A DNA stretch of 32,971 bases from Parcubacteria group bacterium GW2011_GWA2_40_143. Lineage in GTDB: Bacteria; Patescibacteriota; Minisyncoccia; UBA9983. The notes below the pieces were generated by a model. It had not been told where the DNA came from. It saw nothing but the letters and a program-made list of their open reading frames with translations, and ran no database searches. Of the stretch, positions 13,891-32,971 are shown piece after piece; position 1 is the first letter of the stretch; every line of letters begins with the position of its first letter. Made by a program: the position numbers and the translations under genes. The DNA is taken from positions 1-32,971 of the forward strand of contig LBYH01000008.1 in the NCBI GenBank assembly GCA_000996035.1, read 5' to 3'.

Positions 13891-13891
13891 T

Positions 13892-14191
13892 CTAATTTAA
13901 AACACCCAAGCCGCCCAGCCTGATTTTACTTTTTGCCAGTTTAACAAGAAGAAGCAATAAAACAGCCGAGAAAAAAAATATGCCGAAACGCAAATCAGGC
14001 GAGTTTGATGGCATATAATAAAAAGAATCTATGGCCAAAGCGGCAAAAACACCTTCCCAAAAATTATTAAAAAAGATTATGGAAAAAGCGATAACGGGAG
14101 CGGCGACATACCATGGCAACAGAAATATGAAAAGAAAAAAGATAATATCAAACAAAATCCTTATCGTGTTTTTTTTGGCGAAAAAAGACAT
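13892..14191 (-). CDS. Small membrane protein at the MreD position
   Basis: Several hydrophobic segments; sits between mreC and PBP2; only 99 aa. Confidence 0.5.
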   Translation of the reverse strand: MSFFAKKNTIRILFDIIFFLFIFLLPWYVAAPVIAFSIIFFNNFWEGVFAALAIDSFYYMPSNSPDLRFGIFFFSAVLLLLLVKLAKSKIRLGGLGVLN

Positions 14192-14192
14192 T

Positions 14193-14990
14193 TTACTCCG
14201 TTAAAATTACGCTCCTTAGATAATTAATATTTATTGGCAAGCGAAAAATAATTTTTTTAAAAGGATTATTCGTATCGGCTTCAATCTTCTCCGCGATACC
14301 GGCCGTATACGGGAATATGCCGGTCGTGATGATGCTTTCGCCAATCGCAACTTCTATTTGACCGGGAATCTGGAGCTCCATATTGCCGCCTCCAGTGCCA
14401 ACAGCTATAGCCGAAATACTGGCATTCTCAAGTATCACGCCAATCTCTTCTTTAGGAAAAGAAAGGAGCTTTACCTTGCTTGAAACTTCAGACACTTCCG
14501 TCACGTAACCTATTAAAATTTCTCCATGAGCAACCGCTTTCATGCCAAGCCTTACGCCTTCTTTCGCGCCGGCATCAAGAACAAGCATATCGTAAGGCGA
14601 TTGCGGCGGCCTCATTATCACCGAAGCAAGCACGACGTTCTTTTCCCTCTCTCTGCCAAACAAAGCTTTGAGTTCAATATTTTCTTCCTTCAGCCTGTCG
14701 GCGGAAAGAGCGACAACTTCAAGCGTTTCATTCTCTTCTGCCAGACGGTCAATTTCCAGATTCATCTTTTTTTTGTTTTTTAATATACCGGCAAAATTAT
14801 GCCATCTTTTGGAAATTATTTGTCCCGTTTTGGCAAACGGATAAAACACCGTTGAAACCGATTTTGCCACTATCTCTCTGGCGCCGCCGCTAAAGATAAC
14901 GAGCAAGAGAAAAACAAGCAAAACAGCCAACGTTGTTCTTTTTTTGAATCCCCTTTTTTTATTTTGGCGGTATTGCTTCCTCATGATCAA
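14193..14990 (-). CDS. mreC: Rod shape-determining protein MreC
   Basis: N-terminal TM, coiled coil, VIMRPPQSPYDMLVLDAGAKEGVRLGM and TTGIFPYTAGIAEKIE motifs; adjacent to mreB. Confidence 0.88.
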   Translation of the reverse strand: MIMRKQYRQNKKRGFKKRTTLAVLLVFLLLVIFSGGAREIVAKSVSTVFYPFAKTGQIISKRWHNFAGILKNKKKMNLEIDRLAEENETLEVVALSADRLKEENIELKALFGREREKNVVLASVIMRPPQSPYDMLVLDAGAKEGVRLGMKAVAHGEILIGYVTEVSEVSSKVKLLSFPKEEIGVILENASISAIAVGTGGGNMELQIPGQIEVAIGESIITTGIFPYTAGIAEKIEADTNNPFKKIIFRLPININYLRSVILTE

Positions 14991-16035
14991 GTAATATGTC
15001 TCCCAAATTTTCTATTTCTTCAAGAATAATGCCGGTGCCTCTCACCACGGCGGTAAGCGGATCTTCCGCCACATACACAGGTATGCCAAGTTCGCTTTCA
15101 AACATTTTAGACAAACCCCTCAAGAAGGCGCCGCCGCCGGCCATTATTATACCACGATGCATAATATCTGAAACAAGCTCCGGCGGTGTTTCTTCCAGCA
15201 CCTCTTTGGTGGCATCCACCAAAGACTCTATGGATTTTATGATAGCTTCTCTTACGTCCGAATCGGTAATCACCACTTCTCTGGGCAAACCAGTGATGAG
15301 ATCTCTCCCTCTTACAGCCGCCTCAAGACCCTCGCCTTTTTTTATAACAGACCCTACGGCAATCTTTAAGTCTTCCGCCGTTTTTTCACCCAAAAGAATT
15401 TTAAATTCGTCTCTTACATATTGGATAATATCCTGATTAAGCTTGTCTCCGGCCACGCGCATGTTTTTGGAAGACACTATGCCGCTTAAAGAAATTACGG
15501 CAATATCGGTGGTGCCGCCACCTATGTCTATGATCATATTGCCTACCGGTTCATGCACCGGCAGTCTTACTCCCACGGCTGCCGCCATCGGCTCTTCCAC
15601 AATCATCACTTCGCCGGCGCCGGCGCTCTTGGCGGCGTCTCTCACCGCCCTCACTTCCACGTTTGTAATGCCAGACGGAACGCCAATCACTACTCTCGGC
15701 CTGGCGAAAATACCTCTGCTGCTTTTCGTAACTTTTTTTATAAAATAAGCGAGCATCTCTTGAGTAACTTCGTAATCGGACACTACGCCGTCCACTAACG
15801 GTCTTATCGCTTTTATGTGAGCCGGTGTTCGGCCAAGCATTCTCTTGGCCTCATTGCCTATAGCCACCACCTGACCGGTTTTCTCGTTTATCGCCACCAC
15901 CGACGGCTCATTTATCACAATACCTTCGCCTTCCACGTACACCAGAGTATTGGCCGTACCAAGATCTATGCCGATTCCGCCCGAGAGAAGCATTCTTTTG
16001 AATTTCCCAAAAATTTTAAAGTTTTTGAATTTCAT
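14959..16035 (-). CDS. mreB: Rod shape-determining protein MreB
   Basis: GIDLGTANTLVYVEGEGIVINEPSVVA, IDIGGGTTDIAVIS. Confidence 0.97.
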   Translation of the reverse strand: MKFKNFKIFGKFKRMLLSGGIGIDLGTANTLVYVEGEGIVINEPSVVAINEKTGQVVAIGNEAKRMLGRTPAHIKAIRPLVDGVVSDYEVTQEMLAYFIKKVTKSSRGIFARPRVVIGVPSGITNVEVRAVRDAAKSAGAGEVMIVEEPMAAAVGVRLPVHEPVGNMIIDIGGGTTDIAVISLSGIVSSKNMRVAGDKLNQDIIQYVRDEFKILLGEKTAEDLKIAVGSVIKKGEGLEAAVRGRDLITGLPREVVITDSDVREAIIKSIESLVDATKEVLEETPPELVSDIMHRGIIMAGGGAFLRGLSKMFESELGIPVYVAEDPLTAVVRGTGIILEEIENLGDILLDHEEAIPPK

Positions 16036-19300: not shown

Positions 19301-20647
19301 TTATATTGGCTTTGCGCATTTTATTATGTTTACTTGCTTGGCCATTGATACTTTATGCGTTATATTAACAAAACCTATCTCCGTAAGAATTTTATCAATT
19401 TCTTCTTTTGCCAAGAAATGATACACGCCTCTGCGTCCTCTCTTTTCTATCTTTAAAGCTTGATTAAGTATCATCGGGCTATAATATATGTTTTTTTTAT
19501 CTTTGAAATCAAAAATATTTTTCCGCGACGCAACAAAAACTTTCCAAAAGCGAACACCCTTTTTAGGACTTGACCAAACAAAACCGCCTCCGGGTTTAAG
19601 TATTTCAAAAATATTTTTTAAAACGTTCTTAAAAGCCGCCAAATTTAAAGCATCATTATGACAAACAATATAAGGCAAAACAAGATTAGCGGTTACGCCG
19701 TCAAAACTGTTTTTTTCAAAATTAATTTGATCTCCCAAATCCAAAAACTCAACTCGTATATTATTTTTTTCTTTAAACCGATTTTTTAACTCTTCTATAA
19801 AATTATGTTCAAAATCAGTCGCTATTATTTCCGCGTTATTACTCGCGCCTTTTTCGTTCAAAATATTGACAATGGCGCCTGAACCGCTTCCAAGATCAAT
19901 CCATCTGCCCTTTACATCGCCAATGCTATTTTTGAAATCTTCAACCAGCTCTTTGTGCGGGTCGGCTTTTTCCAAATAATTATAAAATTTGCTGTAATTG
20001 CCCCAAAATTTTTGTTCCTTTTTCTTTACTATCTCAATCATTCGCGCTCGCGCGTCGCCAAGGGAATCATAAAACACTTTTATCATTTCTTCTTCAGATA
20101 AATGGCCGTTAATATATAAAGGTTTGCCAAAAAAAACCATTACCTTTTTTTGAAATTTAAATATCTTTTTCCAGCTTAAATTTTCCGCTCCGTACAAAAA
20201 AACAGGCACTATCGGGCGCATACTTTCTTTACTGATTAAAGGTATCAACTTATCTACCCTGCGCGCCAAGATCTCTTGTTTGTAGCACCATTCAAAAAAA
20301 ATGATAACTGATTTGCCACCCCACAATAGTTCAAGAGTTTTTCTCATTCCAGAATCTATCCCCTTATTCAATTTTCCGGGAAAAGCGCCCCAAACCTTAG
20401 CAAGTTTTCCAATAGTTGTTTTAAATAAACTATCTTCGGAAAAATAATAAATCGGGTGAAATTTTGAAAACGAAGTAAGGCTCATACTGATAATGGGAGG
20501 GTCAAAATAACTTCCATGATTGCTTGAAAAAATAACCGGTTTTTTTACATTTTTTAAATTCTCTCTGCCGTATATTTCCAAGCCGGCAAAAATCTTAAAG
20601 ATAATTCTAAGCGCCGGCAATGAAATAATGTGCATTATCTTTAACAT
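19301..20647 (-). CDS. Fusion: N-terminal PlsC-type acyltransferase and C-terminal SAM-dependent methyltransferase
   Basis: SSNHGSYFDPP (HX4D) then WIDLGSGSGAIVNIL...IIATDF...GGFVWSSPKKG. Confidence 0.8.
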   Translation of the reverse strand: MLKIMHIISLPALRIIFKIFAGLEIYGRENLKNVKKPVIFSSNHGSYFDPPIISMSLTSFSKFHPIYYFSEDSLFKTTIGKLAKVWGAFPGKLNKGIDSGMRKTLELLWGGKSVIIFFEWCYKQEILARRVDKLIPLISKESMRPIVPVFLYGAENLSWKKIFKFQKKVMVFFGKPLYINGHLSEEEMIKVFYDSLGDARARMIEIVKKKEQKFWGNYSKFYNYLEKADPHKELVEDFKNSIGDVKGRWIDLGSGSGAIVNILNEKGASNNAEIIATDFEHNFIEELKNRFKEKNNIRVEFLDLGDQINFEKNSFDGVTANLVLPYIVCHNDALNLAAFKNVLKNIFEILKPGGGFVWSSPKKGVRFWKVFVASRKNIFDFKDKKNIYYSPMILNQALKIEKRGRRGVYHFLAKEEIDKILTEIGFVNITHKVSMAKQVNIIKCAKPI

Positions 20648-20724
20648 TTTTCAAACTTCAAAAAAACTTTAAAAATTGTCTTGGTGGTTAAAAAGGTTAT
20701 AAAGTGAACGAGTCTGGTCATAAT

Positions 20725-20892
20725 TTACTTACCCCTTTTATACAACAATTCATCTAAAAATGCAACGCATTGTGGTAATGTCCACGCACACGTGACGGTT
20801 TTTACTCCATAAGGTAAAAAAACGCCAAAATCGCCACTTTGGAGAAAAAAGAGAGAGAATTGTTGTTTCCTGCAATAGTAATTTTGCCGCAT
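20725..20892 (-). CDS. Putative 55-aa small protein (below the ORF-track cutoff)
   Basis: MRQNYYCRKQQFSLFFLQSGDFGVFLPYGVKTVTCAWTLPQCVAFLDELLYKRGK*; ATG lies 1 nt after the stop of the upstream gene, suggesting coupling. Confidence 0.4.
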   Translation of the reverse strand: MRQNYYCRKQQFSLFFLQSGDFGVFLPYGVKTVTCAWTLPQCVAFLDELLYKRGK

Positions 20893-20893
20893 T

Positions 20894-21616
20894 CTACTGC
20901 TCTATTATACCTTTGACACGCAAAAGAAAATCCTTAAAATCCTTTGTTGAAAAATATACTTCTTTTGTTTCATAAATATGAGTCGCTAGTTTAGGATAGT
21001 TTTGAAGACCGCCACGATCTATAAACCATGGCCAAAATTTTATAAAATCCTCATCATAACTCAGCATTACCCATGCAATAAGTTCAGATATCTCCCAGAG
21101 CTTGTGTTCGGTGTCATTTAAAAAAATATCTCTCAAGTGATTCCACAAATAGGCAATTAATATCTCATGCGCGGTTATTTTACGCATTGTAAAAGGATTT
21201 TCTCTCCACCCTCTAACAACGACATTATTACCCCAGCTCGCCAAGCCATGAAAAAAAGCTGTGACATGACAATCATAAACAGGAAAATGTGAACTAAGCT
21301 TTGTTTTTTTATTTATCAATTCAAAGAATTTATCATTTATTTCGTCCCATGAGTTTTGATACAACTTTGATGTTTTTTCGATAAAATGACCATAAGATTG
21401 ATAGAGCTTGCTTACATATAAATCAATATTTTTGTCGTTAATTTCTCCGTAGTTTTTTTCTATTTCCGGCCATATTGTATCAGCAAGATTTTTTTTATCC
21501 AGGTAGATGCTCTTAAGCAGCTCGGAATCACGCTGCTTATCCGAGAAGAAATTTAATTTAACATTTTTATTCATGTAATAATAATAAGCAAATGGAGCAT
21601 TTTTTGCAAATAACAA
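20894..21616 (-). CDS. Hypothetical protein with degenerate HExxH-like motif (AHEILIA), apparent paralogue of 28102..28767
   Basis: Shared pattern DC..., HE[IV], W[ED][IL]SE[LI], PK...IY in both ORFs. Confidence 0.55.
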   Translation of the reverse strand: MLFAKNAPFAYYYYMNKNVKLNFFSDKQRDSELLKSIYLDKKNLADTIWPEIEKNYGEINDKNIDLYVSKLYQSYGHFIEKTSKLYQNSWDEINDKFFELINKKTKLSSHFPVYDCHVTAFFHGLASWGNNVVVRGWRENPFTMRKITAHEILIAYLWNHLRDIFLNDTEHKLWEISELIAWVMLSYDEDFIKFWPWFIDRGGLQNYPKLATHIYETKEVYFSTKDFKDFLLRVKGIIEQ

Positions 21617-21628
21617 TATTATGTAAAT

Positions 21629-21670
21629 TAAAAAGAGGTGCGGGTTTTTTAAACCACACCTCTTTTTTTA
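21629..21670. terminator. Intrinsic terminator, likely bidirectional
   Basis: AAAAAGAGGTGCGGGTTTTTTAAACCACACCTCTTTTTTT: GC-containing stem flanked by A and T runs, just after the radical SAM stop. Confidence 0.85.
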
Positions 21671-21678
21671 AAATTATT

Positions 21679-23043
21679 TTAAACTAAAACAGGTTTCTGT
21701 GCCTTAGCTTTAATGCACAACCACAAATCTCTTATAATCCAATCTATTGTCATTTTGGCATGAACACAAAACCTCTCATCTAGTTCCCATATTGATCCTT
21801 TTGAAATTTCAGCGTCACAAGGACATCCACCACCGCACGTGCCAAGCGCGACGCAAGATTGACATTTTTCCATAGTGATAGGCGAACGTTTTTTCCATTC
21901 TTTGTATGTTGGGGTGTCCTCAACAATCAACTCATTGTCAAATACAGTCCCAACGAAATGCTTGCGCGATCCAATGTAACCATGGCAAATTCCGACTTGA
22001 CCATCTGGAGCAACAACTAATTGCCTACCGCCTCCGGCAGCACAATCGTATGGATGTATTTTCTGCTTTGAAAAAGAATTTATTTTCCGCATAATTCTAT
22101 CTTCATAGATTCCTTTTTCCCTGAAAATCTTATATGCGTTTATTATAAACTCAGCAGCTCTAGTCTCATAATCTTCTCTGAGTTTAATAGAATGTCCGCG
22201 AGCCAATATATTGAAACCTAAACCCTTGACCCCAATCTCATTAATCAAAAACTCGATAGTGCTTTTTTGATTTTTAATCGTTTCTTCGTTGATAGTGCAA
22301 GATATTCCAACAGGAATATCTTTACTTTTCAATAGTTTTATTTTTTTCATCACACGATCAAAAATCGGCTCTCCGTAAAAATCACGACGGTGTAGGTTGG
22401 TTGCAATTTTTTCACCATCAATAGATATTGAAACATTTACCTTTTTCTCGCGTATGAAATCCGCCAATTCAGATGTAAAGAATAGACCATTAGAAACCAT
22501 GTTAATGCTTAATGACTTTGGCAAGGATCCTTTTTCTTTAAGATGCGCAATATATTTTATGGCTTCCATAAAAACTTTTTTATTCATTAGTGGCTCGCCA
22601 CCATAAAATATAATTGTTTTTTTCTTCTCAAAGTAATCTGGATGTCGTTTTATGGCTTCAGCAAAAAAATCAATCGATTTTTTTGCCGTTTCGGTTGACA
22701 TAAAAATTCTACTTTGCTCTTCTGGTATTTGATTTTCTATAAAACAATAATCGCAAGCCAAATTACATGCATCTGTTAAAAGTAAGTACATAACAGAGAC
22801 TGGCGATGGTAAAGACATCAATGATTTTATTGTTTTGTCTAACAAGTTTTTATCTTCATCTTCTGATTTAACTACCATTCCAGCACTATATAACTTATCA
22901 CTATAAGCATCAAGTTTATTCAGTCCTTCTATTTGATTAATTAATTCTCTGGAAACAAATATGACTTTAATGTTTAGAGAATGATATAGTGCCACCATAT
23001 CTTTATCAACCGGTATTGTGTGAACAAATCTAGACAATTTCAT
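21679..23043 (-). CDS. Radical SAM/SPASM peptide maturase
   Basis: LTDACNLACDYCF (CX3CX2C), FYGGEPL, SPASM Cys cluster CQSCVALGTCGGGCPCDAE...FCVH; start with RBS AAGGAGG at 23043 (ORF track extends to 23148). Confidence 0.93.
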   Translation of the reverse strand: MKLSRFVHTIPVDKDMVALYHSLNIKVIFVSRELINQIEGLNKLDAYSDKLYSAGMVVKSEDEDKNLLDKTIKSLMSLPSPVSVMYLLLTDACNLACDYCFIENQIPEEQSRIFMSTETAKKSIDFFAEAIKRHPDYFEKKKTIIFYGGEPLMNKKVFMEAIKYIAHLKEKGSLPKSLSINMVSNGLFFTSELADFIREKKVNVSISIDGEKIATNLHRRDFYGEPIFDRVMKKIKLLKSKDIPVGISCTINEETIKNQKSTIEFLINEIGVKGLGFNILARGHSIKLREDYETRAAEFIINAYKIFREKGIYEDRIMRKINSFSKQKIHPYDCAAGGGRQLVVAPDGQVGICHGYIGSRKHFVGTVFDNELIVEDTPTYKEWKKRSPITMEKCQSCVALGTCGGGCPCDAEISKGSIWELDERFCVHAKMTIDWIIRDLWLCIKAKAQKPVLV

Positions 23044-23080
23044 TAGATCCTCCTTATTATCTTTAAAGTTTAAAGAATGT

Positions 23081-23112
23081 GCACGCAAACATAGTACTTC
23101 ATGTTTGCGTGC
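23081..23112 (-). promoter_or_regulatory. Perfect hairpin between RiPP precursor and maturase
   Basis: GCACGCAAACAT-(8 nt)-ATGTTTGCGTGC, 12-bp perfect stem, no strong U-tract. Confidence 0.7.
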
Positions 23113-23126
23113 ATTTCCCTGATGGC

Positions 23127-23276
23127 TCATGGATAACATGAACCGCAATCACAAGCACATTGACAATCGCAAGCCGTACAATTTAATCCATCAAATGATT
23201 CCATGTCTAAATTGCTCTTGATTTGAATTAAATCATTTTGATCCGGCTCGTAAAAAATTATCTCAATGTTCCCCAT
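23127..23276 (-). CDS. Cys-rich RiPP precursor peptide (49 aa), ranthipeptide/thioether-type candidate
   Basis: MGNIEIIFYEPDQNDLIQIKSNLDMESFDGLNCTACDCQCACDCGSCYP*; RBS AAAGGAGGT upstream of ATG; 7 Cys in the last 17 residues; directly upstream of the radical SAM/SPASM gene; absent from the ORF track (<60 aa). Confidence 0.88.
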   Translation of the reverse strand: MGNIEIIFYEPDQNDLIQIKSNLDMESFDGLNCTACDCQCACDCGSCYP

Positions 23277-23280
23277 TTTT

Positions 23281-23519
23281 AACCTCCTTTCTTTTTTCTA
23301 ACTTTCCAAAAATAAAATACGGTTTGTGTTTTTTCTTTGTCGGTCATACCTCCTTTCTTGATTTAATGGTTATTTTTATTAATTTTTTAAAGAATCAATC
23401 TATTTTAGAGGCTACCATAGGGGGGGGGTAAAAGTCAATCGTAAGAAAAATTCGCGCTTCTGTTTTTTTACACCTCCGGTAACTCCACGCCCAACGTCAA
23501 ACCCCAATGTCAAGGTTGA
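23281..23519 (-). repeat. Leader/promoter repeat copy R1
   Basis: 23429-23519 is identical to 30836-30926 (91 bp, or 99 bp counting the shared G8); the remainder is similar with small indels. Confidence 0.92.
23411..23438 (-). promoter_or_regulatory. Promoter: TTGACT / TTTA C9 TATGG / TAGCCT
   Basis: -35-like TTGACT and extended -10 TGGTAGCCT separated by 18 nt that include a C9 tract. Confidence 0.6.
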
Positions 23520-24556
23520 GTCTCATGCAAACTTTTTTTGCTCACCCATTCATTTGCTTTATGGGCATTAAACGGACCAGGTCCGAGAATAATCATCTTT
23601 GATGCCATTTTTCCAAGAAAAGAGCCGTCAGTAAAATAATTTACTGAACCACTCTTATTGCCGGTGATTTTTTCTATATCAGAAATAAAATTTTCATCAT
23701 CGCATTGTACCGGCAGAACTGAAAATTTTGTTTCCACCCTGGCATTATATTTTTTCGCGATTTTCAAAAAGTTTTCAATTATCTTCTTGTTTTGTTTTTC
23801 TGCAACAGTGCGACATTCCACTTCTAAAACACACTCGGCTGGCACTTTATTAACAGCATCTCCTCCTTTAATTTTTCCAAAATTAATAGTGGTATAATTA
23901 GGAGAAAAAATATCATTTTTATAATCCTTTACGCCAGCAAAATATTCTTGAATTTCTTTAATAAAATCGCAAGCAAGAATTATGGCGTTTAGTCCTTTTT
24001 CCGGTTCGCTTCCGTGACATTCTTTGCCATAAAAATTAATCACAAAAGAAAGAATTCCCTTGGATGCAATCATCGGCTCAAGATTTGTTGGCTCTCCGAC
24101 AATAACATATTCAGTATTTATTTTTTCAGTTTTCATAAAATCAGTTATTCCTTCAAAGTTTGTTTCTTCATCATACGTGAGTAACAGATTGAAACCATTT
24201 TTGCAATTTTTAAAATTTATTTGCGATACTGCCGACAATAAAGAAGCAATCCCGCCCTTCATATCAGAACTGCCAAGCCCATAAATTTTATCTCCATCAA
24301 TTTTCATTGCAAAAGGATCAATCGTCCAGTTTTCCCCAGCAGAAATAGTGTCCGTGTGTCCTAAAAAGGTTAGGGCCGGTTTACTTCCAATTGTGACAAA
24401 TAGGCTTGCTTTGTTTGATTCTTTATTTTCCACTAATTCAATCTTAAAACCTAAAAGACACAGGAAGTTGGCTATCCATTTTACTATTTCATTATTATCC
24501 TTATCCTCAACCGTATTAAATTTTATTAATCTTTCTAAGATCTTTTCAATATTCAT
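23510..24556 (-). CDS. M20 family metallopeptidase/deacylase (ArgE/DapE/CPG2-like), 3' end truncated at repeat R1
   Basis: LGHTDT, GLGSSDMKGG, DEETNFEG, GEPTNLEP, GPGPFNAHKANEWV; last codons and stop fall inside repeat R1. Confidence 0.85.
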   Translation of the reverse strand: MNIEKILERLIKFNTVEDKDNNEIVKWIANFLCLLGFKIELVENKESNKASLFVTIGSKPALTFLGHTDTISAGENWTIDPFAMKIDGDKIYGLGSSDMKGGIASLLSAVSQINFKNCKNGFNLLLTYDEETNFEGITDFMKTEKINTEYVIVGEPTNLEPMIASKGILSFVINFYGKECHGSEPEKGLNAIILACDFIKEIQEYFAGVKDYKNDIFSPNYTTINFGKIKGGDAVNKVPAECVLEVECRTVAEKQNKKIIENFLKIAKKYNARVETKFSVLPVQCDDENFISDIEKITGNKSGSVNYFTDGSFLGKMASKMIILGPGPFNAHKANEWVSKKSLHETQP

Positions 24557-24631
24557 ATATTTTTTCCTTCTTCTTTTTCACTTTTTTCTCAAAGCGGATC
24601 TTTTCATGCTTTCGGATTTTAGCGGAAAGGG

Positions 24632-25354
24632 CTAAGACAAAAATTTTTCTTCTATACTTATTATTTCTCCAGAAATAAAAATTTTATTGCTCTTAATAAA
24701 AACCTTAAAAATGGAATTGCTAGGTTGCTTAATCTGAAACTTTTCTATTTTATATTTTGAATACATAAAATATGCTAATGCCATTGTCCCTGAACCACAA
24801 GCAGTTTCTTCAATTAAAGTATCTATATCTTTAACCCATATTATTGGTTTTATTGAAAATATATTTTTATTTTTCTTATAAGAAATTACACCTGATGCAG
24901 GAAAATTATTATAATTTTTTACTAATAGTTTTTTTGCTTCACTTTTTATTATTTCTTTATTCGTTATAAAATACGCAATTCCAGTTAAAAAACATGAATT
25001 TTTTGAACATCTAAAGTTATTTAAAGATAGCTTAATTTCAGAAGTATTATCTTCCACGGTTGCCTCAATAAAATTATCTTGCCCAGAAGATTCAAGTCTG
25101 ATTTTTGTTTTACCCGTATCATTTTTAATTAACATAGCAAGACACCGTAGCGCATTCCCACAAAATTCTCCTCCTGCCATTTCTAATCTCCCGTCGTTAT
25201 TTTTATCTTTTGCGCGCACCCAAAAACCTACCTGCTCAATAGTAGGATCCTTTTTCATTATTATTTTTGATAATTTTATTTTTTCCTTTTGGCTATAATC
25301 GCTTTTAACAATAGCAGTTATATTTCCACCTGGATTTACCTTGTAGTATTTCAT
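24632..25354 (-). CDS. PLP-independent amino-acid racemase/epimerase, DapF superfamily, CntK-like (histidine racemase family)
   Basis: NPGGNIT N-terminus, EQVGF, MAGGEFCGNALRC and EETACGSGT (both catalytic Cys); N-terminus lacks the DapF HGxGNDF signature. Confidence 0.65.
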   Translation of the reverse strand: MKYYKVNPGGNITAIVKSDYSQKEKIKLSKIIMKKDPTIEQVGFWVRAKDKNNDGRLEMAGGEFCGNALRCLAMLIKNDTGKTKIRLESSGQDNFIEATVEDNTSEIKLSLNNFRCSKNSCFLTGIAYFITNKEIIKSEAKKLLVKNYNNFPASGVISYKKNKNIFSIKPIIWVKDIDTLIEETACGSGTMALAYFMYSKYKIEKFQIKQPSNSIFKVFIKSNKIFISGEIISIEEKFLS

Positions 25355-25362
25355 AATAATAA

Positions 25363-25390
25363 AATGGGGGTGTTTAAAAACACCCCCATT
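25363..25390 (-). terminator. Putative terminator hairpin
   Basis: AATGGGGGTGTTTAAAAACACCCCCATT, perfect 13-bp inverted repeat. Confidence 0.65.
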
Positions 25391-25405
25391 GATAAATTTG
25401 AAGCG

Positions 25406-26347
25406 TTATAATTCAGATATGAAATGCTTTAGTTTCTCATACCCTCGTTCAAGTACCTCCTTTGCAACCTCGTGTGGTAAAGAAAACTTTTCTACTCCCG
25501 CGAATTCTTGTAAAAGAATCTTGTAATCGCGGAGTATATTTTTTACCTTACCTTGGTTGCTGTCAAGCAATGAACTCAAGAGGCGAAACATTTCATCAAC
25601 ACTGTCTGGTAAATCACAACCAAACACTGGTTCATTTTCGTAACAGTAGTATGTGGGAGGATCGCCAATTTGCGTAAAGATTTGTGTTGATTTCCATTGC
25701 TCATGGAAACCCATCCTTTCAACCATTTGTTGCCGAAATCTATAGAATATTTTTTCTGCTGGACCACCGATCATGATTATGTGTTTATGATTTAAAGACA
25801 TTTCTTTGACCAGTAAACACTCTTTCATATTTGGAACATTGATCGGATCTCTCATGTAAAAAATATGTTCTATCATGTACTGAATTGCGTTCATTCCACC
25901 ACGCTTATCGGCAAATGCTTTAATCTGCTCATCTGATTGATATATTTTCAAAGCGGACGGCATTAGACTTTTAATAACGTTAGTAAACGCAGAGAATGTG
26001 CCACTATCAATTAAGACTTCAAGCTCAATCTGGTAAAAAGTTTTCACATATTTTTGTAAAGCTTTTTTTACTAAATCGCATGAGTTTTGATAGTTGTTAG
26101 AGTTTGCTCTTTCAACACCATGCTTTGCGATATATAGATTTATGGCTGGGTTGCCAAGCTGTGTAGAAAGTCGCATCACTGGTATGGGATAAGCAAGCAA
26201 TCGGATAGGAACTTTTTGATTAAGACCATATCCTTGAGCAAGACAGATTTCTTGATTTCTACTGGGTTTGATTTCTCGAAAGAATTTTCCAATTTTTCCG
26301 CCTTCGTTGTTTAAAAGGTTGGTGATAAGTTCGTCTCTGAATTTCAT
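25406..26347 (-). CDS. Orphan protein, ~314 aa (family not recognised)
   Basis: Start MKFRDEL with upstream GAGGGG; long uninterrupted ORF between HisRS and the racemase. Confidence 0.75.
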   Translation of the reverse strand: MKFRDELITNLLNNEGGKIGKFFREIKPSRNQEICLAQGYGLNQKVPIRLLAYPIPVMRLSTQLGNPAINLYIAKHGVERANSNNYQNSCDLVKKALQKYVKTFYQIELEVLIDSGTFSAFTNVIKSLMPSALKIYQSDEQIKAFADKRGGMNAIQYMIEHIFYMRDPINVPNMKECLLVKEMSLNHKHIIMIGGPAEKIFYRFRQQMVERMGFHEQWKSTQIFTQIGDPPTYYCYENEPVFGCDLPDSVDEMFRLLSSLLDSNQGKVKNILRDYKILLQEFAGVEKFSLPHEVAKEVLERGYEKLKHFISEL

Positions 26348-26375
26348 TTTTTCCCCTCTTTTTGTAAAAGTAAGC

Positions 26376-26409
26376 GTCGACACTACCAAGCAACCTTGGT
26401 AGTGTCGAC
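26376..26409 (-). promoter_or_regulatory. Perfect 15-bp hairpin with 4-nt loop between HisRS and the orphan gene
   Basis: GTCGACACTACCAAG-CAAC-CTTGGTAGTGTCGAC. Confidence 0.7.
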
Positions 26410-26422
26410 TTAGAAAATAATT

Positions 26423-27796
26423 TTACCTCACTTCAGCGCAAATATCATCCAAACCTGAAAAACGCTGTTCTCCCGTTTCAAGATTCTTAACCTGAACACC
26501 GTCATTGTTGACTTCATCATTCCCGGCAATAATAGCAAACTTAAATCCCTTCTTACTAGCGTATTTAAGTTGATCGCCTATTCGCTTTGAGTCAAAGAAA
26601 ACTTCTGTTTTAATGCCGCTGTTCCTCAATAAAGTGGCAATCTTGAAATAATAAGACATCAACGATTTATCCATTGAAGTGACTAACACCGGAGCTACAG
26701 TGGCCGGACCAGTTTTCAGTATTCCAGTTTTAAGCAATTGCGAAAAAAGTCTTGTTAATCCTATTGAGATTCCAACGCCTGGCATTTTTTTGTCACCAAA
26801 AAAACTCGTTAAATTGTCGTAGCGGCCGCCGGAACAAATACTTCCAATTTCAGGATAATCAACCAGCGTTGTTTCGTAAATCGTCCCAGTGTAATAATCC
26901 AAACCGCGAACAATACCAAGGTTAACTTTGTAGCTATCTTGAGGAATACCCAAGGTAGCCATGTGTCCAATCACTTGTTCGAGCTCGTCAACTCCTTGCA
27001 AAAACAATTCATTATCTATCTTGCAAGAACGAAGATATTCCATTATTTCATTGATTGGTTTGTTAATGCCGGCAAAATTAATTATGCCGTCAATAATGTC
27101 AGCGCCTATTCCTTTTTCCGCCATTGTTTCTCTTGTTTTGTCTACCCCGACTTTTTCAAGCTTGTCTATCGCATGCATAGCCTCGTTAATGCAATGGTTA
27201 GTTAATCCATAAAAGCTAAAATAGCCCTGAAGTATTTTCCTGTTATTCACTCCGATCATAAACTTCCCAATATTCATTTGTTTGAATATTTGGTAAATTA
27301 CACTCGGCATTTCAGCATCTACCAGAAGAGGCAAATCTTTATCTCCCACAACATCAATATCACATTGATAAAACTCGCGATACCGGCCGGACTGAGGCCT
27401 TTCACCTCTCCAAACTTTTTGAATCTGGTAGCGACGGAATGGAAAATTTAAAAGACTATAGTTTTGTGCGACATAGCGTGCCAACGGCACCGTTAAATCA
27501 AAATGAAGCGCCAAATTTTGGTCATTGTCACCAGAATAATTAGACAGACGCCCCAAAGTGTAGATTTCCCTGTCGTTAGATCCTTTAGCGATAAGCATGG
27601 CCGTTTTTTCAACAGCGCTTGTCTCTATCGGAGAAAATCCGTACTTTTCAAAATTGTCGCGTATGATGTCTAAAATTTTCTGCTCCAAAATTCTTTCTTC
27701 CGGCAACCATTCCGGGAAACATTTACATTGTAGCACATCCTTTCCATTCAATAAAAAGTTCGAAAAAACAGAATTGACAATTTTTGTCGGTTTCAC
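26423..27796 (-). CDS. hisS: Histidine--tRNA ligase (GTG start)
   Basis: FDLTVPLARYVA, RYQIQKVWRGERPQSGRYREFYQCDIDVVG, GLDYYTGTIYE, SGGRYDNL; AAGGAGGTG at the start. Confidence 0.9.
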   Translation of the reverse strand: MKPTKIVNSVFSNFLLNGKDVLQCKCFPEWLPEERILEQKILDIIRDNFEKYGFSPIETSAVEKTAMLIAKGSNDREIYTLGRLSNYSGDNDQNLALHFDLTVPLARYVAQNYSLLNFPFRRYQIQKVWRGERPQSGRYREFYQCDIDVVGDKDLPLLVDAEMPSVIYQIFKQMNIGKFMIGVNNRKILQGYFSFYGLTNHCINEAMHAIDKLEKVGVDKTRETMAEKGIGADIIDGIINFAGINKPINEIMEYLRSCKIDNELFLQGVDELEQVIGHMATLGIPQDSYKVNLGIVRGLDYYTGTIYETTLVDYPEIGSICSGGRYDNLTSFFGDKKMPGVGISIGLTRLFSQLLKTGILKTGPATVAPVLVTSMDKSLMSYYFKIATLLRNSGIKTEVFFDSKRIGDQLKYASKKGFKFAIIAGNDEVNNDGVQVKNLETGEQRFSGLDDICAEVR

Positions 27797-27880
27797 CTCC
27801 TTTCTTAGCTTTAGTTTCGGTTAATTTTTAAAGAACTTATTTAAGTTAAAGGCTACCATAGGGGGGGGGTAAAAAGTCAA
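27785..27880 (-). repeat. Leader/promoter copy R2 (shorter, diverged)
   Basis: TTGACTTTTTA-C9-TATGGTAGCCT, TTCTTTAAAAATTAA, AAAGGAGGTGAAACCGACAAA match R1/R3 elements. Confidence 0.75.
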
Positions 27881-27895
27881 GCAAAATTGGCTCTT

Positions 27896-28093
27896 TTAAA
27901 TTTTAAATAATTTTCTTGCGTTTTCCGTTGTCTGAGCGGCAATCTCGTCAAATGAAACGCCTCGCAAATCGGCAATTTTCTGAGCCGCGTATTTTACGTA
28001 CGCCCCCCACCAACCCCACGAAAAACCTGCTTCCCTTCTCCTTCTGATTCCGCCTAAATTAAATATTTTAATGAAAGATTTTGCCATTTCCAC
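27896..28093 (-). pseudogene. C-terminal remnant of a TatD-family hydrolase
   Basis: AYVKYAAQKIADLRGVSFDEIAAQTTENARKLFKI resembles the TatD C-terminus; only ~35 of ~260 residues recognisable. Confidence 0.65.
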
Positions 28094-28101
28094 GAGGATT
28101 T

Positions 28102-28767
28102 TTACGACAACGCAACCAGACTTTCTTTTATAAACTTTTCCATATTACCATCGCTTTCTTGCCATTTTTTTTCAATTATTGAATAAATTTCTTTATGTTT
28201 TGGATAAAATATTTTCTCTTGCTTTTTAATAATTTTTTGAAACGCCAATTGATTTAAAATAATAACATTGAATATTTCCGACAGATCCCAATATTTGCCT
28301 TGATTTTGATCCATGCCGTTTACTATACCGCCAAGATTAGCGCGACAATAATCAAAGAAAATAAAATGAATAACTTCATGAAAAATAACCCTCAATTTAT
28401 CTTGATTGCTTCTTTTGTAATATACTTGAAAAACATTTTTATCCAAATACCTTGGATTGCAATCAAAAATTGACAATGTTCCACAATATTCTTTGCTTGA
28501 AAAATCTTGTTTGAAAATATCTTTCACGGCGTTAAAAAAATCAACTTGCCTTTGTTGCGCTAGATCATTAATTTCCAATAACGATTTTGTTAATTCTTCT
28601 TTGTTTTTATCATAATAATCGTTTATATATTCTTGATAATTGTCTTTACTTACGGTTGGATGACTTTTAATTATTTTTTCACCAAAATCAACACCTCCCG
28701 CTTTTAATTCAAAGAAGTTCAGAAAGGTTTCTTTATCCAAATTTTTATCTAAAGTTATTTTTATCAT
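28102..28767 (-). CDS. HExxH metallopeptidase-like hypothetical protein
   Basis: VIFHEVIHFIFF (HExxH) and downstream YWDLSE acidic motif. Confidence 0.65.
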   Translation of the reverse strand: MIKITLDKNLDKETFLNFFELKAGGVDFGEKIIKSHPTVSKDNYQEYINDYYDKNKEELTKSLLEINDLAQQRQVDFFNAVKDIFKQDFSSKEYCGTLSIFDCNPRYLDKNVFQVYYKRSNQDKLRVIFHEVIHFIFFDYCRANLGGIVNGMDQNQGKYWDLSEIFNVIILNQLAFQKIIKKQEKIFYPKHKEIYSIIEKKWQESDGNMEKFIKESLVALS

Positions 28768-28781
28768 TATGTGTAAATAAT

Positions 28782-28815
28782 AAGAGCTCCTCTGTAAAAA
28801 TCAAGAGGAGCTCTT
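28782..28815 (-). terminator. Putative terminator/hairpin downstream of the ATP-grasp gene
   Basis: AAGAGCTCCTCT-(10 nt)-AGAGGAGCTCTT, perfect 12-bp stem. Confidence 0.65.
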
Positions 28816-28903
28816 TAAGATCTGTTTATAAAGATCCCATTCCCATACTAAGAAATCCATTATTTCTTTTAACTTCGAAATAGTGTCTTTATCAACATAA
28901 TTA

Positions 28904-29896
28904 TTAGAAATGATACTGCTCGGGTGCGACAAGAAGTTCAGCGATAGCTTCCCCAATCGGCAATCCCGTTAAACGTTCAATCCAAAGCCATTGTCCATTG
29001 GGGTTTATCTCGAGAAAAACGTAGTTATTTTGTGGCGTAACAATTACGTCAATGCATCCGAAAGCAAGGCCTAATTGACGTACGAGCGTCCGACATTTTT
29101 CTTCAATCTCTACTGGAAGCTCAAACGATTCATGTGGCGTATTAGCCAAGTCGTAATGTCGCCAATCTTCTCGCGTTCTTTCAGACTTCTGCGAAAAGAT
29201 TGCGCAGGCAAAAACCTTATCACCTACAACTGTAATTCTAATTTCAAACTTTTTCGGTACATATTCCTGTATGATAGTGGGACAATTTTGCAATTGTTTT
29301 AGCATACCTTGAAGATTATCTGCATCCATGCGTTTTGTATACATAATTAGTGAATCAACACCATTGTGTTCCTGAAACTCAATGCTAGGCATACATATAG
29401 TTTTAAGCGCTACTTCGTCAAGGTCGTCAAGAAACTTATATGCCGCCTGCGCTGAGTTTGTAATCAATGTCTTAGGAATATTAAAACCAATAGACTTGGC
29501 TACCAATAATTGATACGATTTTCTTGAAGCTACGCCAATTGCATCAGGGTCACTAAGCCAGAATACCGATGGCGAGAGGATTTGTGGCAATGAATCAAGA
29601 AAAAATTGGGATTCTCTAGTTATATATTCCCTTACATTTTGACTATTTACCCCAATTGGCGGAGAGGGAGCGCCTTTGCGGCGATTCCAAACGCTCTTTA
29701 CATCACGACAGTCAATCAAATTTTGTCCAACAGACAATCGAACAAAATTTGAATCCACAGAGACTTCAAAACTAATGCTACTTTTTTTTGGGTAAGTTGA
29801 AAAATCAAAGAGTAAATGGCACACGCCCTTTCTAGTTAAAATCTCACTCACATATTGGCAATGAGCGTCATCTGGATTTGACAATACAAAGATCAT
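28904..29896 (-). CDS. ATP-grasp RiPP ligase (MvdD/graspetide synthetase-like)
   Basis: N-terminal MIFVLSNPDDAHCQYV; IIQEYVPKKFEIRITVVGDKVFA; VFLEINPNGQWLWIERLTGLPIGEAIAELL; RBS AAAGGAGG. Confidence 0.88.
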   Translation of the reverse strand: MIFVLSNPDDAHCQYVSEILTRKGVCHLLFDFSTYPKKSSISFEVSVDSNFVRLSVGQNLIDCRDVKSVWNRRKGAPSPPIGVNSQNVREYITRESQFFLDSLPQILSPSVFWLSDPDAIGVASRKSYQLLVAKSIGFNIPKTLITNSAQAAYKFLDDLDEVALKTICMPSIEFQEHNGVDSLIMYTKRMDADNLQGMLKQLQNCPTIIQEYVPKKFEIRITVVGDKVFACAIFSQKSERTREDWRHYDLANTPHESFELPVEIEEKCRTLVRQLGLAFGCIDVIVTPQNNYVFLEINPNGQWLWIERLTGLPIGEAIAELLVAPEQYHF

Positions 29897-29897
29897 T

Positions 29898-30440
29898 TTA
29901 GACCTCCTTTATATTTTTTCTTTTGTTTTTTTTATTCAAACCAACATTCAATCTTAACCGTTTCATGTTGACAGTAAACGATTCAAGGCCAGCATTTTTT
30001 CTTCGTCTTGCTAAATTTTTTTTATCTCTAATAAGATAAGGTTTCAAAAGATTTTGTTCTGATTCATAACGAAACTGAGTGCCATAAATCTGCTTTTTCC
30101 TATTTTTAACAAGCATGCGATCAATCAAATAAGCAAGATTTTTTTTACTCGCTTCTCCTATTTTTACTGCTTTTTTTATAAGACACAAACATTTTTCTTG
30201 GAATTTAACATCATGATCAGCATGTTGGGCAATTAACCATGCGGCATCTGCCGCCTTTTCACCAACTAAACTTTTACCAGGCCAACCATATTTATTGATT
30301 ATCTTCTTGAGTTTTTCAGTATTTTTCATATCAACATTTGCATTCCAATTAGACCGTTTTTTCATAAAAAGTTTTCTCATTTTTTGGTCTCTTTCAATCA
30401 TCAACAACAGGGATTCTTTGATTTTTTTATTGGGGACCAT
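29898..30440 (-). CDS. DUF6624-like protein
   Basis: AAWLIAQHADHDVKFQEKCLCLIKKAVKIGEASKKNLAYLIDRMLVKNRKKQIYGTQF pattern; start codon in hairpin arm. Confidence 0.7.
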   Translation of the reverse strand: MVPNKKIKESLLLMIERDQKMRKLFMKKRSNWNANVDMKNTEKLKKIINKYGWPGKSLVGEKAADAAWLIAQHADHDVKFQEKCLCLIKKAVKIGEASKKNLAYLIDRMLVKNRKKQIYGTQFRYESEQNLLKPYLIRDKKNLARRRKNAGLESFTVNMKRLRLNVGLNKKNKRKNIKEV

Positions 30441-30489
30441 ATATACTAAATCATACTAGAGTTTGGTTTAGTAGTCTATGGTCCCCATT
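30429..30489 (-). promoter_or_regulatory. Long imperfect hairpin between graspetide precursor and DUF6624 gene
   Basis: GGGGACCATA...TACTAAA / TTTAGTA...TATGGTCCCC, ~17 bp paired; contains the ATG at 30440. Confidence 0.7.
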
Positions 30490-30506
30490 TTTTATGGATG
30501 ATTATT

Positions 30507-30689
30507 TCAATCCGTATCGTATGATCCAGGTCCATCCGGGTGAGACATGCTTTCTTCTCCCGCAAACCTCGTTCCCATATCAATATTATAATTTCCTCGC
30601 TTAGCTGGTTCCCCAAACAAAAACATCAATGGGATCATTTCTAAATTATCACCCGGAAAAAATTCCTTTAAATCATTCATTTTGTTCAT
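30507..30689 (-). CDS. Graspetide-like precursor peptide (60 aa)
   Basis: MNKMNDLKEFFPGDNLEMIPLMFLFGEPAKRGNYNIDMGTRFAGEESMSHPDGPGSYDTD*; RBS GGGAGGTG; Ser/Thr plus Asp/Glu-rich C-terminus; upstream of the ATP-grasp ligase. Confidence 0.75.
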   Translation of the reverse strand: MNKMNDLKEFFPGDNLEMIPLMFLFGEPAKRGNYNIDMGTRFAGEESMSHPDGPGSYDTD

Positions 30690-30699
30690 TGCTATCACC

Positions 30700-30926
30700 T
30701 CCCTTTTCTTCCTAAAATTTCCAGAAAATAAAATACGGTCTTTTCTTTGTCGGTCTCACCTCCTTTCTTGATTAATGGTTATTTTTATTAAATTTTCAAA
30801 GAATCAATCTGTCTTAGAGACTACCACGGGGGGGGTAAAAGTCAATCGTAAGAAAAATTCGCGCTTCTGTTTTTTTACACCTCCGGTAACTCCACGCCCA
30901 ACGTCAAACCCCAATGTCAAGGTTGA
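30700..30926 (-). repeat. Leader/promoter repeat copy R3
   Basis: 30836-30926 identical to 23429-23519; homologous leader elements downstream; TTGACT/C8/GTGGTAGTCT promoter. Confidence 0.92.
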
Positions 30927-31339
30927 CGGCTGGTCGCTCGGTAAATGAGAATTGTGTCAAAGACTTTGAGGCCGTTCTCGCCACCGTAAAATTCACGGAA
31001 TACAATGCTTCTACTCAGACCACAATGCACATACAACTTCTCGGTCTTACCTCGAAAAGTCAAACTGTATTGCCCGTTTTACAATATAGTGTTGACGGAA
31101 ATGTTAGCGGTAACAGCTACGTTAGTATCGTTAGCCAGAGTTCGGGAGCGACAATTTGGACCATGGAGCAAGAACCATCAGGTACGCACGACATTGACCT
31201 AAACACACTTACCGCAATTGGCGGTTCTCCAGTGAAAATTACTAATGGATATATTTCTTGCGAGTTCTGGACAAATTCGCTGATAACACAGGCGACGCTC
31301 TTCTGGAGTGCACCACTCCCAGCAAGTGTGTTGCAGTGA
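30914..31339 (+). CDS. Hypothetical protein, probably 5'-truncated at repeat R3
   Basis: Open frame whose ATG lies inside the repeat; beta-rich composition; no recognised family. Confidence 0.4.
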   Translation: MSRLTAGRSVNENCVKDFEAVLATVKFTEYNASTQTTMHIQLLGLTSKSQTVLPVLQYSVDGNVSGNSYVSIVSQSSGATIWTMEQEPSGTHDIDLNTLTAIGGSPVKITNGYISCEFWTNSLITQATLFWSAPLPASVLQ

Positions 31340-31450
31340 GCGCTGCGTTCTATGTCGCACATGGTGTAATGGGTAATTAGCATGAATTTGTAAAAGAGAA
31401 GTTGCGTGCATTTCGCGCATGCTCGAAAATATATTTCCTCGAGGGAGAGA

Positions 31451-32611
31451 TTAGAATAAATTGCGTTGTGAAAAATCTATATTGTAGAGTTTTTCAACAG
31501 CAGTTTTTACAGAATTATAAACTGGCGTATTGGGCTTGGCTTCCGTCGGGACAAGCGTTTCTAGCGGCGCTTGATAGACATTGAACGCCGTATATCCTCC
31601 GTCGCCGCTAAGACAAAACATATTCAACATTCCTTGCTCGACTGACACGATTAGCGGCGAACCAAAATCGCCGACAGTATGACAGAAGTTATCTTTATAT
31701 GTGCGAACAATTTTTTCATCTTTTCCAAACAGTACGATTGCTTGTGTTGCTTTGTTTGGGACTTGTCCGTTGTCAAAGTATCCCATTGTCGCCAACTTTG
31801 ACCCGTCCGGCGATTCACAGTAGGAACCCTGCGCGTAGATGAAAGGAATGGTCGGATTTGCCTTGCGATATTGCGTTCCCCAGTACAAAGTCATTAGTTC
31901 ATCAGAACCGACAATGCAACTGAACTCGCTGCTTGCAACGGCTCCAACTTTGATACTACTTGGTAGTTTTATGCGTTCGATTATCTCGCGAAAATCATCC
32001 TTTTTTGCTTTCGTGTTTTCATTTACGCCATTTTTTATGTATAGAACGGCTGTTCCTACCCGAATGAATGCGTCGTCGTATGATTGTGCATTTCCGAAAC
32101 TTGCGAGCACTTCAACGCCGTCCTTACGCTTGTAAGATTCGTATTTTTGAGAACGATATTGATGCTTGAAATAATCGTAGCTTTCCAACCAGCTCTGTAG
32201 ATTTTTATTCGCGGGAATAATATTTGCGGCAGAAACAAAAATACGCACAAGATCGCTAGTACTTTCCTCAAATTCAATATGTGCAATGGGCGCACTTTCG
32301 TTTGAAGTAACTTTTAGATAAGTCGGATACTCAACGACCAAACCCGACGACGCGGACGCGGGGACAGTTTTCCAACCGTTTTGTGGAGCCGCTGGACTTA
32401 TATTTTGACTTGTCTGTGTCGGCGCTGGATTTGCCGTCGTTCCAGTTGTCTGTGATGAAGTTGTTGGGAGAGTGTCCAAATTATTTTCAGAAGGAGTTGG
32501 CGAAAGTGAGTTCTGTTGCATGACAAAATACGCACCCCCACCGACGACAATCAGACCGAGCACTATCGCTATCAAAATTCCTACGCCGATGAATCCTCGT
32601 TGATTGTGCAT
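31451..32611 (-). CDS. Membrane-anchored hypothetical lipoprotein/pilin-like protein with Pro/Thr-rich stalk
   Basis: MHNQRGFIGVGILIAIVLGLIVVGGGAYFVMQQN anchor, P/T/S-rich linker, soluble domain. Confidence 0.6.
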   Translation of the reverse strand: MHNQRGFIGVGILIAIVLGLIVVGGGAYFVMQQNSLSPTPSENNLDTLPTTSSQTTGTTANPAPTQTSQNISPAAPQNGWKTVPASASSGLVVEYPTYLKVTSNESAPIAHIEFEESTSDLVRIFVSAANIIPANKNLQSWLESYDYFKHQYRSQKYESYKRKDGVEVLASFGNAQSYDDAFIRVGTAVLYIKNGVNENTKAKKDDFREIIERIKLPSSIKVGAVASSEFSCIVGSDELMTLYWGTQYRKANPTIPFIYAQGSYCESPDGSKLATMGYFDNGQVPNKATQAIVLFGKDEKIVRTYKDNFCHTVGDFGSPLIVSVEQGMLNMFCLSGDGGYTAFNVYQAPLETLVPTEAKPNTPVYNSVKTAVEKLYNIDFSQRNLF

Positions 32612-32823
32612 AAATAAAAAGTGGGGAAAACTTATCTTGTATATTTTCTGATCCAGATTTATTGCTATTGGTAATATTTTATCATAAAAATCTCTAAATG
32701 TCAAAAACAGAAGAACGAGAGTGGTCCCTGACTCTCACAAAATATCTTTTGCCTTTTTTGAATTAATTCGCCTCTTTTAATTTTCTTCCTTTTGTGGAAT
32801 TAAACTCCGCAAGTATATCTTTT

Positions 32824-32971
32824 CTATTTATCATAATCTTTAAAAGTCATATGTGGCTTGAAAGATAAACCCTTTGCCAGCCGCCATTCCATGAAAAGAG
32901 TATCAACCGGCTTAACTAAGGCGTTTTTTATGTCAAAGCCTAATTGTTTTGCCGCCTTTTCAATTTCTTCT
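32824..32971 (-). CDS. C-terminal part of a hypothetical protein running off the window
   Basis: Minus frame EEIEKAAKQLGFDIKNALVKPVDTLFMEWRLAKGLSFKPHMTFKDYDK*. Confidence 0.5.
   Translation of the reverse strand, partial: EEIEKAAKQLGFDIKNALVKPVDTLFMEWRLAKGLSFKPHMTFKDYDK

Follow-up and report, generated by a model that had tools for sequence, protein, structure and literature searches.

A predicted graspetide operon with a DUF6624 gene in a Parcubacteria genome, and an upstream cassette shared with radical-SAM operons

Introduction

The closest described systems are the graspetide loci of CPR bacteria treated by Makarova et al. (PMC8939145), which include a Yanofskybacteria locus and for which Phhx(1,2)h is given as the common graspetide leader signature. 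The linkage of graspetides to DUF6624 is likewise already in the literature: according to Carter et al. 2026 (PMC13097080), this family is highly frequent in graspetide groups 18, 20, 23 and 42, and the authors suggest an undiscovered enzyme class. No product is described for RODEO group 42 in the available part of that paper.

The DNA analyzed here (32,971 nucleotides, hereafter “the window”) is the entire contig C8 of a Parcubacteria genome assembled as 728,949 bases in 24 contigs. Bacteria of the candidate phyla carry very small genomes and probably live on other cells, and the present one is likewise probably host-dependent. The window carries a four-gene unit that is very probably a graspetide operon, its chemistry being predicted, and that is of a kind already known in relatives of this bacterium. 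What looks new is an upstream cassette that the unit shares with other peptide-making operons.

Results

Organization of the unit

All components lie on the minus strand in the order precursor, hairpin, DUF6624 gene, ATP-grasp gene and gene for a protein containing HEVIH (Table 1). A preliminary description had proposed a graspetide unit consisting of the first three of these genes. The genes are real and are located on the strand and at the coordinates given there, and the assignment is borne out by the ligase family, the conserved residues, the conserved precursor and the neighbourhood. The unit reaches past positions 28904-30689; a peptidase-like gene, the hairpin and the cassette shared with other operons had been overlooked. 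Gene order differs from that in relatives: the precursor comes first in the window, whereas the ligase comes first at loci L013, L014 and L015. The nearest named ligase matches were from Yanofskybacteria and Zambryskibacteria. Neither an exporter nor a double-glycine cleavage site was recognized within the unit, and an Rfam scan of positions 20000-32971 gave nothing near the gathering score of any family.

Table 1. Features of the graspetide unit and cassette copies in the window
Feature	Position	Strand	Evidence
Upstream cassette: TTGACT, C8 tract, TAGTCT, A/T-rich leader, AAGAAAGGAGGTGA	30690..30930	-	Copies elsewhere in genome
Graspetide precursor, 60 aa, MNKMNDLKEFFPGDNLEMIPLMFLFGEPAKRGNYNIDMGTRFAGEESMSHPDGPGSYDTD	30507..30689	-	ORF with strong Shine-Dalgarno sequence; homologues adjoin ligase in L015, L013, L014
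Leader recognition motif PLMFLFGE, residues 20-27	30609..30632	-	Invariant residues in four homologues; enriched beside related ligases
Predicted core TRFAGEESMSHPDGPGSYDTD, residues 40-60	30510..30572	-	Alignment of homologues
Stem-loop over DUF6624 start codon	30431..30487	-	RNA fold -30.7 kcal/mol, z -6.5
DUF6624 protein, 180 aa, helical with one beta-hairpin	29898..30440	-	PF20329; model pLDDT 92.8
Graspetide synthetase, ATP-grasp, 330 aa	28904..29896	-	TIGR04187, TIGR04185, TIGR04184; PDB 5ig8
Predicted gluzincin-type zinc peptidase, candidate leader peptidase, 221 aa, HEVIH	28102..28767	-	Homologues; AF2 model
Third, diverged cassette copy, before second histidyl-tRNA synthetase gene	27783..27880	-	Sequence comparison
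Second cassette copy, before Cys-rich precursor and radical-SAM gene	23282..23519	-	99 nt identical to graspetide copy

Precursor and leader motif

The precursor ORF starts at the ATG at 30689, seven bases past a GGAGGT Shine-Dalgarno sequence. Direct reading confirmed the previously noted length and a tail with five Ser/Thr and five Asp/Glu residues. Conserved precursors were sought near homologous ATP-grasp genes and were present, adjoining the ligase, at L015, L013 and L014 (55, 35 and 41% identity). The ligase of L015 is itself 55% identical to that of the window. These three loci also carry a DUF6624 gene, and two of them are labelled Yanofskybacteria and Zambryskibacteria. Because homologous precursor, ligase and DUF6624 genes occur in three other genomes, the precursor is real and not just one of many small ORFs. 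Note that when its sequence was searched against 383 genomes of the class, the window alone gave a convincing match; one weak match within a long frame was discarded.

In the alignment of the four homologues, P20, F23, F25, G26 and E27 of the leader and F42, G44, E45, E46, S47, G55, Y57 and D58 of the tail are invariant. Each of the four has T or S at positions 40 and 59, and three have D60. The core therefore has conserved hydroxyls (T40, S47, T59) and conserved acids (E45, E46, D58), that is, three candidate donors and three candidate acceptors. The leader motif PLMFLFGE had been called unfamiliar. It aligns without gaps to PFFARFLE (P, two hydrophobic residues, two variable positions, F, one variable position, E) and conforms to the Phhx(1,2)h signature in the literature (PMC8939145), so that it is a variant of the known leader and not a departure from it. 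The conserved precursor adjacent to the ligase thus combines a Phhx(1,2)h leader with a core containing both S/T and D/E. Small ORFs were counted when they matched the stricter leader pattern P[FLI]hxx[FL]xE and had three or more D/E among their final 20 residues. Such ORFs flank the ligase on the same strand in 12 of 29 related loci, compared to 1.3% of random placements drawn within the same loci.

Hairpin preceding the DUF6624 gene

Hairpins in the gap between the precursor and DUF6624 genes gave z values of -6.5 (window), -5.2 (L015), -3.7 (L014) and -3.2 (L013). Those of L014 and L015 are followed by short T-rich tails; no T-run follows the window hairpin on the coding strand. The window stem-loop is likely to be a partial terminator or attenuator.

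DUF6624 protein

The protein matched PF20329 with 76.3 bits (cut-off 27, E 2.7e-21). No obvious role had been seen for it in the preliminary description, but the gene is not an accidental neighbour, being found repeatedly next to such ligases in many lineages. Among the 383 class genomes, 16 contain DUF6624, 26 contain the ligase and 11 contain both (P 5e-11, treating the genomes as independent). By our own profile, 15 of 30 distinct candidate-phyla loci have DUF6624 no more than 1 kb from the ligase, a count that includes the window and takes L013 and L153, which are the same locus, once. About half of the related ligase loci are without it, and none was found by profile or motif in the Bacteroidota loci examined. 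Copies were also found with no ligase nearby, and the DUF6624 tree interleaves linked and free copies, at least four changes being forced by well-supported branches; due to this pattern, the role of the family may not be specific to graspetides. L015, the locus nearest in both ligase and precursor, carries a distant DUF6624 subfamily. Since the same precursor family is served there by another subfamily, DUF6624 appears to provide a needed but replaceable activity, and not to be one co-evolved protein.

Searching the DUF6624 sequence against solved structures returned nothing significant. Assignment by fold was abandoned as uninformative, the matches being mixed helical proteins (Foldseek best E 1.4, VIA Z no higher than 7.4). 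Conserved residues are D18, R22, D37, Q72, H73, D107, R108, Q117, G120, T121, Q122 and R147. This polar set looks catalytic, and the protein is most likely a tailoring enzyme acting on the peptide or, failing that, a partner of the ligase.

The latter possibility, a required partner or chaperone in place of a catalyst, like MirC for rosaritide, is one we consider unlikely but worth keeping in mind. DUF6624 repeatedly adjoins the ligase, MirC is an established case of graspetide biosynthesis that depends on a partner (PMC13097080), and the middling PDB matches of the all-helical model include TPR and 14-3-3 binding proteins. Those matches are, however, too weak for assignment, and the invariant His, Asp and Arg residues, together with a YGTQ loop, point to a site for catalysis or ligand binding. 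The distant subfamily at the closely related L015 and the existence of free-standing DUF6624 genes also argue against a partner.

Protection of the producer, by immunity or by turnover of the mature peptide, is improbable. Immunity genes are common in peptide operons, and copies of DUF6624 outside producers could protect non-producers. Such free copies nevertheless reside in unrelated gene contexts, the sequence of the window protein has no apparent signal peptide or other membrane or secretion signal, and no bioactivity is known for these peptides. Due to the conserved precursor family and the compact operon, the role of DUF6624 can be tested by simple co-expression.

ATP-grasp ligase

The best NCBIfam models matched the ligase strongly (TIGR04187, E 1.6e-67; TIGR04185, E 3e-64; TIGR04184, E 1e-58), each below its cut-off, which by sequence places the protein in the RiPP maturase superfamily but in none of these three subgroups. 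PF21068 scored over its cut-off, and the ligase is of the MvdC/MvdD/SAV_5884 kind with a pre-ATP-grasp domain. The closest solved structures were the ATP-grasp ligases 5ig8 (E 1.3e-43), 5ig9 and AMdnB. The motif EINPNGQWLWIERLTGLPI, already pointed out in the preliminary description, is present, and the ligase retains every residue that is invariant in an alignment of 14 sequences spanning several phyla, including K126, K165, K215, E218, R220, D244, R246, D283, E296 and N298; ATP-binding and acceptor-site positions are both intact. A RimK-like enzyme that adds amino acids to, or otherwise modifies, a target other than the precursor, with the small ORF incidental, was set aside as highly improbable: a RimK-type domain does match, but RiPP ATP-grasp maturases match far more strongly and precursors with conserved leader and core motifs lie beside related ligases.

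In the ligase tree the window groups with L013, L014 and L015. The exact fork is weak (95/31), and a set taking in a Vampirovibrio row is supported at 100/83. The ATP-grasp frame of one relative (L098 and L138, G020) contains one TAG interruption, reflecting either a decayed gene or a sequencing error.

Predicted downstream peptidase and a second RiPP-like set

The last gene of the unit encodes HExxH as HEVIH, with H130 and E131 invariant in the alignment, and a Glu within WDLSE lies 30 residues beyond. Its AF2 model (pLDDT 90.4) was compared using VIA, and the 50 chains listed are M1/M4-type zinc metallopeptidases or their close kin; the best Z was 7.4, below Z 8, and the lanthipeptide peptidase EryP was among the matches. 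The model is thus suggestive of a zinc peptidase of M1/M4 type, and weak SPX and Imm63 matches were set aside for this reading. Homologues occur near related ligase or DUF6624 loci (L160, L094, L172, L149 and others). HExxH is conserved except in one divergent zincin-like paralogue of the window, which has HEILI.

This divergent protein (20894-21616, second His absent) belongs to a second RiPP-like set on the minus strand at 20894-23276, together with a Cys-rich ORF of 49 residues (23127-23276) and a FibroRumin-like radical-SAM/SPASM protein (21679-23148), whose true start is probably close to 23043. At L160, a matching set of Cys-rich ORF, radical-SAM gene and zincin gene adjoins a DUF6624 gene. 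Between the two RiPP sets of the window, positions 23510-26389 (minus strand) encode M20-type peptidase, DapF-like and weakly DUF6938-like proteins, possibly a small-molecule pathway.

Upstream cassette

The cassette of approximately 230 nt recurs, whole or in part, five times on contig C11. Allowing one mismatch, its promoter-like core TTGACTTTTNCCCCC occurs 10 times in the genome and the reversed control does not occur; in each of ten further genomes from the same family, such matches number 0 to 3, which is close to their controls. Eight of the ten core copies precede the graspetide unit or radical-SAM operons. Those in the window are followed by the graspetide unit, the FibroRumin-like radical-SAM operon and the second HisS gene, and those on C11 by five radical-SAM operons, of which two have small precursor-like ORFs after the cassette, one has a downstream Cys-rich ORF, one has a TrpC-like gene and one is HemN-like. 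On C4, one copy precedes a radical-SAM gene that looks B12-dependent and the other a decayed HisS remnant. Altogether 7 of the 12 radical-SAM genes in the genome are cassette-linked.

Every core copy contains a C-rich tract, in nine cases an unbroken run of 6 to 9 C. Runs of at least six C or G number 10 in 66 kb, and 8 of these (6 to 9 long) are inside cassettes. The C4 copies have C9 in one case and an interrupted tract (CCCTCCCC) in the other. Promoter hexamers, including the -10 box, were read by eye, and tract length moves the distance from TTGACT to TAGNCT between 14 and 19. In Neisseria, slippage of tracts in promoter regions is a known cause of phase variation. Given a C-rich tract in each copy, expression from the cassette may be switchable by slippage.

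Because the graspetide operon starts from a cassette common to several radical-SAM operons, it is probably part of a common regulon of modified peptides, as judged from the sequence of one assembled genome. Such a regulon, if real, would provide a direct handle on the function of these peptides. A notable share of two contigs goes to modified-peptide operons with a common control sequence.

The second HisS gene (26423-27796, minus strand) is 28-30% identical to another on C7 and lies beside an apparent tatD 3' fragment (27896-28093). On C4 (L193, C4:1-1598), a full tatD-like gene is followed by the decayed hisS remnant, and from these arrangements a tatD-hisS segment appears to have been copied into the peptide region. 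Cassette copies on C11 (L191, C11:1-18000) lie near apparent histidine-kinase 3' fragments, and one C11 operon has a ThrS paralogue after its radical-SAM gene at 13718-15139.

Discussion

Proposed mechanism

Transcription of the operon would start from the cassette common to several radical-SAM operons. The precursor would be made in excess, as its gene, the first of the operon, lies behind a strong ribosome site, and the hairpin after it would cut read-through into the enzyme genes. Judging by its register, PLMFLFGE would dock on the ATP-grasp ligase in the way that PFFARFLE docks in microviridin systems. The ligase would then activate acidic side chains with ATP and join them to Ser/Thr of the core, giving two or three predicted ester cross-links among T40, S47, T59 and E45, E46, D58. 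Steric constraints make links between neighbours (S47 with E45 or E46, T59 with D58) unlikely; a pattern that connects the GEES block to the YDTD block, with one further link from T40, would therefore be likelier. DUF6624 would most likely tailor the peptide as an enzyme or else assist the ligase as a partner, and the downstream zincin would remove the leader.

A wider scheme is offered as speculation that we ourselves hold doubtful as a whole. In it, copies of one promoter cassette, with a C tract between -35 and -10 that can slip, would drive a multi-peptide regulon in a reduced candidate-phyla genome. This regulon would comprise the graspetide operon, two or more radical-SAM operons that encode Cys-rich precursors, and several further radical-SAM operons. 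Single cells would switch products on and off, the spare HisS and ThrS would perhaps be resistance copies, and DUF6624 would be a new class of tailoring enzyme.

Comparison with known systems

The CPR graspetide loci of branches 1 and 2 in Makarova et al. 2022 (PMC8939145) also have an ATP-grasp ligase, a small precursor whose leader follows Phhx(1,2)h, a recurrent uncharacterized “cluster 23” protein and zincin peptidases; many of them include SPASM radical-SAM enzymes as well. The cluster 23 protein is probably the DUF6624 family; that paper does not name DUF6624, and in its available portions neither a shared upstream cassette nor the hairpin is mentioned. RODEO group 42 of Carter et al. 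2026 (PMC13097080) likewise consists of candidate-phylum clusters with frequent DUF6624. Rosaritide (MirABC), a partner-dependent graspetide, resembles the window unit in that a non-ligase protein is encoded with the ligase, but MirC is PpiC-like and DUF6624 is another family. Microviridin systems (MdnC/MdnB, MvdC/MvdD) share the ligase family and residues and the leader register (PFFARFLE to PLMFLFGE). Membership among them was rejected because the TxKxPSD-type core is absent and the MvdC/MvdD equivalog scores are 217/425 bits and 199/475 bits; unlike them, the window unit has a single ligase and includes DUF6624 and a zincin.
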